Source: Deminuibacter soli
GTDB taxonomy: Bacteria > Bacteroidota > Bacteroidia > Chitinophagales > Chitinophagaceae
Assembly (NCBI RefSeq): GCF_003412455.1
Contig: NZ_QTJU01000012.1
Span: 62,001-126,000 of the forward strand
DNA: 64,000 bases
Reading direction: 5' to 3'
The notes below the pieces were generated by a model. The model ran no database searches. It was not told the origin of the DNA and worked only from the letters and a program-made list of their open reading frames with translations. Numbering within the stretch: position 1 is the first letter of the stretch; every line of letters begins with the position of its first letter. A program made the translations under genes and the position numbers. This document shows, in pieces, positions 31,455 through 54,868 of this stretch.

Positions 31455-32453
31455 ATGAAGGTGTTGATTGTCCGTTTATCATCCATTGGCGATATTGTAT
31501 TAACAACGCCTGTTGTACGCTGCGTTAAACAGCAGGTGCAGGAGGCGGAGGTGCATTATTTAACCAAGAAAAGCTTTGCCACCCTGCTTAACAGCAACCC
31601 GTATGTAAGCAAGGTGCATGTGCTGGGCGATGACTGGGATGCGATGATTGCAGCATTGCAGGCTGAGCAGTTCGACTGCATTATAGACCTGCATCATAAC
31701 CTGCGCACCCTTCGCATTAAACGGGCTTTAAAAAAAGTGCCTGCTTATTCGTTCAATAAACTCAATGTGCAGAAATGGCTACTCACTGCACTTAAAATAA
31801 ACCGCATGCCGCCGGTGCACATCGTTGATCGCTACCTGGATGCTGCCAAAACACTGGGTGTGGTGAACGATGGGCGCGGGCTGGATTATTTTATTCCGGC
31901 CAAAGATGAGGTGCCTGTTACCGATTTACCCATGAGCCATCATGCCGGTTACGTAGCCGTGGTAATAGGTGCTGCACTCAATACCAAAAAATTGCCGCTG
32001 GCCAAACTGCAGCAGTTGTGCGCCTCGCTGCAACACCCTGTTGTGTTGCTGGGCGGCCCTGAAGACAGGGCAGCAGGTGAACTGATTGCCGCACAGGATA
32101 CAGTTAAAATTTACAATGCCTGCGGCAAATTCAATCTCAATGAAAGCGCGCACCTGGTACGCAATGCCAGGCTGGTGGTAACACACGATACCGGCTTAAT
32201 GCACGTGGCGGCTGCTTTTAAAAAACAAATCATTTCTGTGTGGGGCAATACGGTCCCTGCTTTTGGTATGACACCCTATTACGGCAATGCCGTAGTAAAT
32301 GCCCCTGTGTTTGAAGTAAATGGCCTCTCGTGCCGTCCCTGCAGTAAAATAGGGTATAAAAAATGTCCCAAAGGTCATTTTAAATGCATGAACAACCAGG
32401 ATATCCCGGCCATTGTGCAGGCGGTGGAGAAGGGGATTAAGAAGGTTCAATAG
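31455..32453 (+). CDS. Glycosyltransferase family 9 (heptosyltransferase-like)
   Basis: 332 aa. Opens with MKVLIVRLSSIGDIVLTTPV, the signature of GT9 heptosyltransferases, and carries VVLLGGPEDRAAGELI and THDTGLMHVAAAFKKQIISVWGN for nucleotide-sugar binding, then CRPCSKIG. Likely adds heptose or a similar sugar to the lipopolysaccharide core. An ADP-heptose epimerase gene lies at 51990, which fits. The gene ends right at the start of the repeat region. Confidence 0.9.
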   Translation: MKVLIVRLSSIGDIVLTTPVVRCVKQQVQEAEVHYLTKKSFATLLNSNPYVSKVHVLGDDWDAMIAALQAEQFDCIIDLHHNLRTLRIKRALKKVPAYSFNKLNVQKWLLTALKINRMPPVHIVDRYLDAAKTLGVVNDGRGLDYFIPAKDEVPVTDLPMSHHAGYVAVVIGAALNTKKLPLAKLQQLCASLQHPVVLLGGPEDRAAGELIAAQDTVKIYNACGKFNLNESAHLVRNARLVVTHDTGLMHVAAAFKKQIISVWGNTVPAFGMTPYYGNAVVNAPVFEVNGLSCRPCSKIGYKKCPKGHFKCMNNQDIPAIVQAVEKGIKKVQ

Positions 32454-32538
32454 TTTGAAGGTTCCATAGTTCAAGCGTTCAATTGTTCAAGGGGCTAACC
32501 TGTTTCGGTTTAACGTTTCAAGTTTAATGTTTAACGTT
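32448..32538. repeat. Degenerate GTTCAA/GTTTAA tract leading into the array
   Basis: GGTTCAATAGTTTGAAGG, then GTTCAAGCGTTCAATTGTTC and GTTTAACGTTTCAAGTTTAA, beginning over the stop codon of the GT9 gene. Same family as the tracts at 738, 14812 and 51838. Confidence 0.6.
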
Positions 32539-33600
32539 GGACATGGCTTTTGTGTGGGTATCAGCGATGAGTGTTTGTTCAAAAAGTTTCATTGTTCAAA
32601 AGTTCAATTTAGGCACATAGCTTATACGTCGGCTGTGGGGACACAGCCTTGGGCAGGGATATTAAACAATGCAATCAATTGAACTATTGAACGCTGGAAC
32701 CGGCGCTAAATAGAACTGTTTCCTGTTTCAAGATTTCCCGTTGAACGTTTAATGTTGGACATGGCTTTTGTGTGTGGGTATCGGCGATGAGTGTTTTGTT
32801 CAAAAGTTCATTGTTCAATAGTTCAATTTAGACAGATAGCTTATACGTCGGCTGTGGGGACACAGCCTTGGGCAGGGATATTAAACAATGCAATCAATTG
32901 AACTTTTGAACATTTGAACTCAGGAACCGGCGCTAAATAGAACTGTTCCCTGTTTCAAGATTTCCTGTTGAACGTTAATGTTTGACATGGCTTTTGTGTG
33001 GGTATCGGCGATGAGTGTTTTGTTCAAAAGTTTCATTGTTCAAAAGTTCAATTTAGGCAGATAGCTTATACGTCGGCTGTGGGGACACAGCCTTGGGCAG
33101 GGATATTAAACAATGCAATCAATTGAACAATTGAACTATTGAACGCTGGAACCGGCGCTAAATAGAACTGTTCCCTGTTTCAAGATATCCTGTTGAACGT
33201 TTAATGTTGGACATGGCTTTTGTGTGTGGGTATCAGCTATGAGTGTTTGTTCAAAAAGTTTCATTGTTCAAAAGTTCAATTTAGGCACATAGCTTATACG
33301 TCGGCTGTGGGACACAGCCTTGGGCAGGGGTATTAAACAATGCAATCAATTGAACAATTGAACTATTGAACGCTGGAACCGGCGCTAAACAGAACTGTTT
33401 CCTGTTTCAAGATTTCCCGTTGAACGTTTAATGTTGGACATGGCTTTTGTGTGTGGGTATCGGCGATGAGTGTTTTGTTCAAAAGTTTCATTGTTCAATT
33501 TAGACAGATAGCCTATACGTCGGCTGTGGGGACACAGCCTTGGGCAGGGGTATTAAACAATGCAATCAATTGAACAATTGAACTATTGAACGCTGGAACA
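32539..33600. repeat. Tandem array of five long repeats with a conserved hairpin
   Basis: Five head-to-tail units begin at 32539, 32757, 32983, 33209 and 33436 (unit lengths 218, 226, 226, 227 and a last, shortened one). Each starts near GGACATGGCTTTTGTGTG and contains GTTCAAAAG-type runs, CTTATACGTC, then the hairpin GGCTGTG-GGGA-CACAGCC and TTGGGCAGGG. The 7-bp stem is intact in all five; unit 4 lost one loop base only. Units 1 and 4 share variants, and units 2 and 5 share others, so blocks of units were duplicated. No long open frame. It lies between the 3' ends of two convergent genes. Confidence 0.93.
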
Positions 33601-33644
33601 ATGGAACTTGAAACATTAAACTTGAAACTTGAAACACAAAACCG

Positions 33645-34577
33645 CTACGATAAAGTCTGCAGTACGGCGTTCATGCTGCGAACGGCTTCGGCGCTTTTGG
33701 CGAACTGGGCCTGTTCGGTCTCATTGAGCCGGTAATCGATGATTTTTTCCCAGCCGTTTTTGCCGATGGTTACAGGTACACCCAGGCAGAGGTCTTTTTC
33801 GCCATATTCACCATCGAGGTGAACACAGCAGGAGAACAGGCGCTGCTCGTTGCGGAGAATGCTTTTTACCAATGCAGCACCTGCTGCGCCGGGGGCATAC
33901 CAGGCAGATGTGCCAATGAGTTTGGTTAAAGTAGCACCACCTACCATGGTATCGGACACTACCTGTTGCTGTTGATTGGCCGACAGGAACTGTGTAACAG
34001 GCACACTGTTCCAGGTGGCGTAGCGGATAAGCGGTATCATGGTGGTATCGCCGTGGCCGCCTATAACAAGTGCATTTAAATCGGCAGGAGAGCAGTTGAG
34101 TGCAGCGCTGAGATAGCATTTAAAACGGGCACTGTCGAGAATACCGCCCATGCCAATGATGCGGTTTTTTGGAAGGCCGGTGCTTTGCAGTGCCAGGTAA
34201 GTCATGGTGTCCATGGGGTTGCTGATCACTACAATAATGGCATCGGGGGAGTATTGGAGAATGTTTTGTGCTACGGTTTGCACAATACCGGCATTGGTGC
34301 CGATAAGTTCTTCACGCGTCATGCCCGGTTTGCGGGGTATGCCTGAAGTAATAACCACCACCTGTGAGCCGGCGGTTTTGCTGTAATCGTTGCTGCTGCC
34401 GGTAATCTTTGTGTCGAAACCGAGCAGTGTTGCGGTTTGGGTTATATCCAGCGCTTTGCCTTCGGCAAGCCCTTCCTTAATGTCGAGCAGTACAACTTCT
34501 TCGCATAAAGCAGCGCGGGCAATATTGTCGGCACAAGTGGCACCTACAGCGCCCGCTCCTACTACTGTTACTTTCAT
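33645..34577 (-). CDS. mdh: Malate dehydrogenase
   Basis: 310 aa. It has the Rossmann start VTVVGAGAVGATCADNIA, LLDIKEGLAEGKALD, the mobile loop GIPRKPGMTREEL (two Arg, typical of malate rather than lactate use), ISNPMDTMTYLA, and the catalytic HG pair in VIGGHGDTTMIPL. NAD-linked oxidation of malate to oxaloacetate in the citric-acid cycle. It is the LDH-like type of MDH. Confidence 0.95.
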   Translation of the reverse strand: MKVTVVGAGAVGATCADNIARAALCEEVVLLDIKEGLAEGKALDITQTATLLGFDTKITGSSNDYSKTAGSQVVVITSGIPRKPGMTREELIGTNAGIVQTVAQNILQYSPDAIIVVISNPMDTMTYLALQSTGLPKNRIIGMGGILDSARFKCYLSAALNCSPADLNALVIGGHGDTTMIPLIRYATWNSVPVTQFLSANQQQQVVSDTMVGGATLTKLIGTSAWYAPGAAGAALVKSILRNEQRLFSCCVHLDGEYGEKDLCLGVPVTIGKNGWEKIIDYRLNETEQAQFAKSAEAVRSMNAVLQTLS

Positions 34578-51609: not shown

Positions 51610-51837
51610 AATACAAAAATGTGGAAAAAAGTCCCAAAAAACCTGATTTTCGTAATGTTTTGCCTTTTTTGTTCGTAGTCTGTGTATAAAATGAACGCTT
51701 TTTTCAAATATTTAAAAAAATGTAATGGGTTGGGCCCTTCATCCAGGTTACAAAGGGGATTTTTGCGCCTGCGGGCATGCTTGGGAGGCTCGGGGTTTTG
51801 GCTTAGGTTTGCCACCGGCGAAGCCGCGTTTTACGCG

Positions 51838-51965
51838 TTCAATAGTTTAAATGTTCAAGAGTTCAAATGTTTCATTGTTCAAGGGTTTAAAAGTTTAAGG
51901 TTTAAAGTTTAAGATTATTGAACAATTGAACAATTGAACAATGGAACAATGGAACAATTGGAACA
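51838..51965. repeat. GTTCAA/GTTTAA tract ending in ATTGAACA tandem copies
   Basis: Starts with GTTCAATAGTTTAAATG and similar irregular units (51838-51910), then near-perfect copies of ATTGAACA/ATGGAACA with a period of 9-10 bp (51916-51965), up to 25 bp before the hldD start. Same family as the flanks of the long array. Confidence 0.7.
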
Positions 51966-54335: not shown

Positions 54336-54362
54336 CCGTTGCTTAACGGTTACTTCTTTTTC
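54332..54362. terminator. Terminator overlapping two convergent stop codons
   Basis: A 9-bp perfect stem GTAACCGTT/AACGGTTAC (loop GCTT) followed by TTCTTTTT. The stop of proC lies in one arm and that of the minus-strand gene in the other. Confidence 0.75.
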
Positions 54363-54868
54363 CCAAAGTTTGTTTTAAAGAACGCTTTGAAGAGCTTTTC
54401 CTCTTTCCCAAAGTTTGTTTTAAAGAACGCTTTGAAGAGCTTTTCCTCTTCTTCCTGGAAAATGGGCGGCTGAAACTGGCTGGCGCTGCCAAAACGCAAA
54501 GTGAACGGCGGCACCCGGAAATAAACGGAATCGCCCGCAAGGTTTTCAAAATAATAGGCCTGTGAAAAGCCTTTGCCTGCTTTTTTAAGATTGGCCGGGT
54601 TAAAATACAGGGGAGAAGACGCTTCTCTCAGCGCAGCATCTATACCCACAACAGCTATTTGCAACGTACCGGGCTGATAACCTACAGCATAATTGTAATA
54701 TGTAAACGTTCGTTTGGTTATGCTGGCGGTTTCCGTTTGGTAGTTGCCATATACAATCCGGTAATCATTTGCCTGTGGTACTACTAGGCTGAACAGCAGG
54801 CCCAGCTTTTGCCTGGCCTCGCTGCTGCGCGATTCGCTGGGTATAACCAGCTTTTTGATGAAGTTCAT
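54350..54868 (-). CDS. Protein of unknown function with a duplicated C-terminal 15-residue unit
   Basis: 172 aa from ATG 54868 (MNFIKKLVIPSESRSSEARQ); the frame goes up to 54904. The middle has beta-like segments (YYNYAVGYQPGTLQIAVVGI, SQAYYFENLAGDSVYF). The end is two copies of EEKLFKAFFKTNFGK, encoded by a perfect 45-bp DNA duplication (54361-54450). No family recognised and no signal peptide seen. Confidence 0.6.
   Translation of the reverse strand: MNFIKKLVIPSESRSSEARQKLGLLFSLVVPQANDYRIVYGNYQTETASITKRTFTYYNYAVGYQPGTLQIAVVGIDAALREASSPLYFNPANLKKAGKGFSQAYYFENLAGDSVYFRVPPFTLRFGSASQFQPPIFQEEEEKLFKAFFKTNFGKEEKLFKAFFKTNFGKKK
54361..54450. repeat. Perfect tandem duplication of 45 bp
   Basis: Copy 1 is 54361-54405 and copy 2 is 54406-54450; both begin TCCCAAAGTTTGTTTTAAAG and are identical. 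In frame with the gene on the minus strand. Identity suggests a recent event. Confidence 0.95.

Follow-up and report, generated by a model that had tools for sequence, protein, structure and literature searches.

REP elements and REPINs of gammaproteobacteria, together with their REP-associated tyrosine transposases (RAYT, or TnpA-REP), are the closest described systems to the hairpin reported here (PMC2817692, PMC8266576, PMC3116915). As presented in the sections of those papers cited here, they share with our family a short hairpin with a one-sided foot, many copies that often lie between genes and an arrangement in inverted pairs, and their RAYT genes are likewise flanked by the same elements and encode an HUH motif and a tyrosine, with 4er8 as the closest structure. 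They differ in the foot, which is GT[AG]G there and (G)CC here, and in the perfect 10-bp stem, the constant GTG/CAC tip and the T-rich or TCCN loop, which characterize the family here. With the GT[AG]G foot absent and GCC in its place, the canonical GTAG REP was rejected as the identity of the hairpin.

A RAYT group with similar departures has been described. In the part of PMC6006769 considered here, E100 and R104 are among the guide contacts of RAYT, and RAYT subclass 2.6 is mostly from Bacteroidetes, with an unconserved guide-contact region and "atypical" flanking structures that have copies elsewhere; that part gives no consensus foot for the subclass. Our RAYT group differs from the E. 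coli protein in that E100 and R104 are not kept (0/81 and 1/81), and resembles subclass 2.6 (PMC6006769, the same part) in being mostly from Bacteroidetes, with non-GT[AG]G flanks that have copies elsewhere and an unconserved guide-contact region. The RAYT here may belong to subclass 2.6, a lead that follows from likeness by description. The present family belongs to the known REP/RAYT kind, with a GCC foot replacing GTAG, and Bacteroidetes RAYTs with "atypical" flanks are already in print. The sections of PMC3733652, PMC6006769, PMC2817692, PMC8266576 and PMC12306157 considered here contain no GCC-foot consensus.

The CGTC REPs of PMC3733652, in the part cited, are also similar in their short hairpins, their occurrence in several phyla including Bacteroidetes, their loops of 4-5 bases and their paired arrangement, and that part reports that no RAYT flanked by CGTC units was found. 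Of the 93 hairpins examined in our genome, the only ones with CGTC in front are the five array copies; it is thus not a family trait, and a CGTC-type REP was rejected. Tandem BIME arrays of the BIME-2 type consist of head-to-tail REP-containing units (PMC2817692, as far as cited), as does the array in the window, which differs from them in having one solo REP per unit and approximately 85% of each unit outside the REP.

The array and its hairpin

The window, a 64,000-nucleotide stretch of Deminuibacter soli DNA, contains a tandem array detected by TRF with 91% matches (Table 1), which lies between a glycosyltransferase family 9 gene and a lactate/malate dehydrogenase gene that converge on it, in agreement with the preliminary description, which had reported five units between convergent genes. 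The unit length of 220-227 bp given there was correct at the upper end and too high at the lower, the unit starts being 218, 226, 226 and 227 bp apart in the unit alignment. The same alignment reproduced the stem GGCTGTG/CACAGCC in all five units and the single loop base missing from unit 4, and the outer two stem pairs were broken in all five hairpins. Each unit holds one solo REP, with no inverted partner. As for the private variants said to be shared between units, those of units 1 and 4 were found (alignment columns 25, 39-43 and 78), and the corresponding claim for units 2 and 5 is weak because these have one column (75) in common. A search of 59 genomes, none of them congeneric, located the full unit in this genome only; two other genomes gave short weak matches at most, and the matches elsewhere in its own genome were short pieces of up to 61 bases.

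Table 1. Positions of the array, its units, hairpin copies and neighbouring genes in the window, and of the RAYT gene on C11. R1 and R2 are the hairpin models described in the text.
Feature	Position	Strand	Evidence
Tandem array	32522..33599	.	TRF, period ~227 bp, 4.8 copies
Unit 1, 218 bp	32540..32757	.	Unit alignment
Unit 2, 226 bp	32758..32983	.	Unit alignment
Unit 3, 226 bp	32984..33209	.	Unit alignment
Unit 4, 227 bp, hairpin short by one loop base	33210..33436	.	Unit alignment
Unit 5, truncated	33437..33599	.	Unit alignment
REP copy, unit 1 (GCC foot, hairpin, TCCC loop)	32625..32657	-	R1 38.4 bits; R2 19.7 bits, E 0.0014
REP copy, unit 2	32844..32876	-	R1 38.4 bits; R2 19.7 bits, E 0.0014
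REP copy, unit 3	33069..33101	-	R1 38.4 bits; R2 19.7 bits, E 0.0014
REP copy, unit 4, shortened loop	33297..33328	-	R1 29.3 bits; R2 11.9 bits, E 0.46
REP copy, unit 5	33516..33548	-	R1 38.4 bits; R2 19.7 bits, E 0.0014
Glycosyltransferase family 9 gene, left neighbour	31455..32453	+	ORF, PF01075
Lactate/malate dehydrogenase gene, right neighbour	33645..34577	-	ORF, PF00056 + PF02866
RAYT gene, 171 aa	C11:59265-59777		HUH motif + tyrosine, NF047646 match

The conservation of the hairpin among the units had been taken as a possible sign of selection. Within the array, one of its 18 columns is variable, and 28% of all 18-column stretches of the alignment show 0 or 1 variable columns; because the hairpin is not exceptionally conserved among stretches of equal size, this argument fails. 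The initial alternative of a structured element under selection or a minisatellite was otherwise partly right in each half: the hairpin belongs to a dispersed REP family with a structured, covarying stem, and the array represents a tandem amplification, at this site, of the surroundings of one such copy. Support for the structure of the hairpin is found in its other copies across the genome and in other species, not in the array itself.

Short repeats of the GTTCAA type lie on both sides of the array hairpin. The segments 32461-33599 and 51837-51947 of the window are densely packed with GTTCAANN repeats in 8-bp phase, which run in direct orientation on one side and inverted on the other; repeats of this type have 30 near-matches across the window, compared with 0.5 expected, and fragments of them turn up again elsewhere in the genome.

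A dispersed hairpin family and the RAYT gene of the genome

A genome-wide search with the hairpin pattern, which is nearly palindromic, gave 123 forward and 124 reverse matches at up to 2 mismatches, compared with 1 and 2 for the pattern read backward. In a set of 93 exact hairpins with flanks, 88 from fetched loci and 5 from the window, GCC occupied positions -6 to -4 of the stem in 87 (82/88 without the window's five), and two further outer pairs were formed in 83 and 84 of the 93 despite varying letters, the slid-partner control giving 10-49. Outer-stem changes in the other copies thus keep the pairing. The preliminary description had regarded confinement to one strain and stem-breaking substitutions in other copies as speaking against a selected element; the array was indeed found in only one of the 59 genomes, whereas pairing is kept elsewhere. 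A second stem class, GCCGGTG/CACCGGC, has the same foot, tip and loop as the GGCTGTG/CACAGCC class, and in the family consensus a GCC foot stands on one side of a covarying stem, which reaches at most 10 bp and ends in a GTG/CAC tip, with TCCN as the loop.

Covariation was evaluated in an alignment of 69 rows, which contained 76 double-change cells, compared with a mean of 23.7 after shuffling, and had a covariation score of 0.302 (0.089 shuffled), values that none of 500 shuffles reached in either case. For two further measures, the count of pairs showing a double change and that of pair types, the alignment was no better than shuffles (313/500 and 267/500). Two of the five covariation measures thus did not beat shuffles, and the same was true of the foreign alignment described below. 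The model R1 was made from 69 of 80 distinct rows, with 11 omitted, mostly near-duplicates from arrays, and because the rows had been preselected for the GCC head and the inner 7-bp pairing, the outer pairs alone are free evidence in it.

R1 detected at least 149 copies in the genome, in 91 clusters, a number that is a lower bound because 150 of the 3212 candidates were scored (up to 150 per genome for R1 and R2 alike). A genome-wide search had been proposed earlier as a check, and it places the array hairpin among these related hairpins. Neighbouring copies within 80 nt were arranged outward in 22 cases, the other way in 10 and in the same direction in 2, and 21 of the 22 outward pairs were spaced 37-45 nt apart, the remaining one 75; these outward pairs are REPIN-like. 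The family therefore has the high copy number, the dispersal and the one-sided motif (GCC, 87/93) of a REP element in the broad sense, and also the inverted pairs with constant spacing of a REPIN, whereas the array copies are solo. Its members stand alone, in inverted pairs or within further tandem arrays.

NF047646, the model of the REP-associated tyrosine transposase, had one match in the genome, which lies within a hairpin cluster on C11 with REPs within 100 bases on either side of the gene. The match extends over the full length at 74.2 bits (NCBIfam cut-off, 80), and that to Pfam Y1_Tnp reaches 20.6 bits (cut-off, 23). Both histidines of the HUH motif and the catalytic tyrosine are present in the protein, whose structure model has a pLDDT of 94. 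Among solved structures the closest was 4er8, in which a RAYT is bound to a REP hairpin; it was matched at an E of 0.014 by sequence alone, of 5.2e-5 by profile and of 2.6e-9 by the fold of the model (TM 0.60). Across an alignment of 81 RAYTs, the tyrosine, both histidines and the W corresponding to E. coli W94 were invariant, and the columns of E. coli E100 and R104 held mainly A/S/P and Y/F/D. A PF01797 match at C17:415449 was rejected as the cognate transposase, being an IS200-type protein whose locus yielded no hairpin.

Hairpins beside RAYTs of other genomes

The best 80 of 195 named loci encode RAYTs 40-50% identical to that of this genome, and their titles name taxa that we take to be Bacteroidota. 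Within 400 bp of these RAYTs (63,450 bases), the tip G[TA]G/C[AT]C was present in 207 of 226 perfect hairpins, in 70 of the 80 loci, compared with 30 of 63, in 17 loci, at greater distances (388,178 bases), the tip rule having been derived by inspecting the 80 loci and then counted on those very loci. After removal of 16 hairpins with unclear orientation, 191 oriented hairpins remained, of which 147 had CC at positions -12 and -11 relative to the loop and 4 had it at the mirrored site. In a second set of 16 RAYT loci from genomes of the window's family, 13 had such hairpins. This set is partly dependent, as L297 and L218 are one and the same DNA; when L297 is left out, the hairpin was present in 12 of 15 loci and the CC foot in 25 of 36 hairpins compared with 11 of 36 mirrored, indicating a less one-sided foot, and one locus (L304) has a CTA foot.

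The model R2 was made from 57 of the 191 oriented foreign hairpins, with at most one per locus, 4-base loops only and no row of this genome. Most of the covariation in its alignment (175 double-change cells, with 0/500 shuffles as high) is due to the way the rows were selected because they were chosen for 8 perfect pairs, and two covariation measures were not clearly above shuffles (33/500 and 427/500). R2 gave at least 144 matches in this genome (150 of 1039 candidates scored) and recovered array copies 1, 2, 3 and 5 at an E of 0.0014 and copy 4 at 0.46 only. The median number of R2 matches was 7.5 in 16 genomes with this RAYT, which are all those above 100 bits among 59 others (14/16 above zero, 2/16 none), and 0 in 16 genomes without it, which were hand-picked, non-randomly, from 43 (6/16 above zero); for this comparison, the Mann-Whitney p was 5e-4.

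Among the 30 top-scoring NF047646 loci in the family's other genomes, we noticed by eye RAYTs flanked by hairpins with an apparent GCT foot (L110, L113, L117, L119 and L125), which are perhaps a sister REP type. Of 117 genomes searched, the exact hairpin was found in this one and in one other, G099. This distant family member has the identical 18-base hairpin at 8 sites (odd-numbered loci L063-L077), and at most of these a second hairpin of the GCCATTCGTG type lies directly upstream. The G099 copies were set aside from the family because, by eye, none of the 8 has GCC at the foot position.

Origin of the array and occurrence of other arrays

Very probably, the array is a minisatellite formed by amplification of a solo, worn REP, which RAYT would have placed. 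We read it in this way because the hairpin is dispersed in the genome, is of the type found beside foreign RAYTs and is recovered by R2, which was made from foreign hairpins only. The sequence of events would be as follows. RAYT, as an HUH single-strand transposase, may recognize the foot and hairpin as single-stranded DNA and cut and paste REP copies between genes; one such copy would have been inserted between the two convergent genes. The surrounding 220 bp would then have been duplicated several times via unequal recombination or slippage, perhaps aided by the GTTCAA-type short repeats flanking the hairpin as recombination sites. The REP is decayed, its outer two pairs being broken in all five units. 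Other than as a hairpin close to the ends of two genes, the array REP probably plays no specific part, and a specific job for the array itself is not supported.

The gene context of the family was determined in 60 evenly spaced 20-kb stretches with 600 intergenic gaps. There, 43 of 62 REP matches fell in called intergenic gaps (29 gaps), and the other 19 fell in called ORFs (16) or at a stretch edge (3), the ORF caller being crude. The REP-bearing gaps were tandem in 15 cases, convergent in 12 and divergent in 2 (n=29), compared with 331, 131 and 138 (n=600), which corresponds to a convergent excess (p 0.012) and a divergent deficit (p 0.021). This bias agrees with the possibility that the hairpins are retained mainly because they serve the host where genes end, in transcription end, in mRNA 3'-end protection or as a protein-binding site, the array being a multiplied 3'-end barrier; however, the same bias would be expected from the loss of insertions in promoters, terminator-like sites numbered 0 in 32300-33800 compared with 1.8 expected, and such a function has no need of the RAYT association or the inverted pairs, so that we regard it as improbable. 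An intrinsic terminator was rejected as an identity, as no site with a hairpin and a T-run was present in 32300-33800.

It is scarcely credible that the unit of approximately 220 bp encodes a structured RNA of which the hairpin is merely the best conserved part: one unit folds somewhat better than shuffles (z -2.14), but promoter-like sites are at chance (2 compared with 2.2 expected), Rfam has no match at the array, and unit matches elsewhere in the genome are the short pieces mentioned above. A known RNA family was also rejected, Rfam giving one tRNA only across the window. A plain minisatellite, produced by slippage on GTTCAA-type low-complexity DNA, with an accidental hairpin unrelated to the transposase, would fit the density of GTTCAANNGTTCAA-like sites in and around the array (30 in the window compared with 0.5 expected) and the fact that 8 of 9 arrays in the even gap sample have no REP. 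It explains the tandem copies but not the at least 149 dispersed copies with a foot, a covarying stem and a RAYT; it is refuted as a complete explanation of the hairpin and is very improbable as a whole, whereas slippage on GTTCAA-type DNA is a likely cause of the duplication step. A broader proposal than the amplified worn REP is that a Bacteroidota-wide RAYT lineage has a changed code, with a (G)CC foot and a fixed GTG-loop-CAC tip instead of GTAG, and that nicking there also drives tandem amplification, giving rise to this and other REP arrays; we consider it unlikely.

An explicit consensus, with foot, register, stem, tip and loop, is now available for REPs that, in the parts of the literature cited on this RAYT clade, have so far been termed atypical only. 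RAYT-REP recognition thereby becomes testable beyond GTAG systems, and many unexplained hairpin repeats of Bacteroidota genomes could gain an annotation. The value of the array is explanatory, as a duplicated, decayed REP neighbourhood.

Two or more REPs lay inside an array in 7 of 70 fetched REP loci, in addition to the window. These loci had been chosen for bearing REPs, and this chosen set is enriched for arrays relative to REP-free gaps (8/571; p 1e-4), whereas in the even sample the link was not significant (1/29 compared with 8/571, p 0.36), so that any causal link between REPs and arrays would be tentative. A second array, at C21:8587-9644 (L132 1588-2645), has 4.9 copies of 216 bp; besides its single REP, which is of the CCGGTG type, each unit has a separate GC hairpin flanked by A/T. 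Further REP groups, regularly spaced at approximately 71-158 bp, were observed at C18:349069-349868, C20:176200-176751, C24:154893-155336, C18:264985-265378, C22:298947-299120 and, from the match list only, C18:451369-451652. A tandem repeat with a 77-bp period (231 fits too) and approximately 51 copies occupies C21:236062-240000 (L199 16062-20000), up to the end of the stretch, and is perhaps a repetitive protein gene. At positions 54359-54450 of the window, a 45-bp sequence is perfectly duplicated (2.0 copies at 100% identity).
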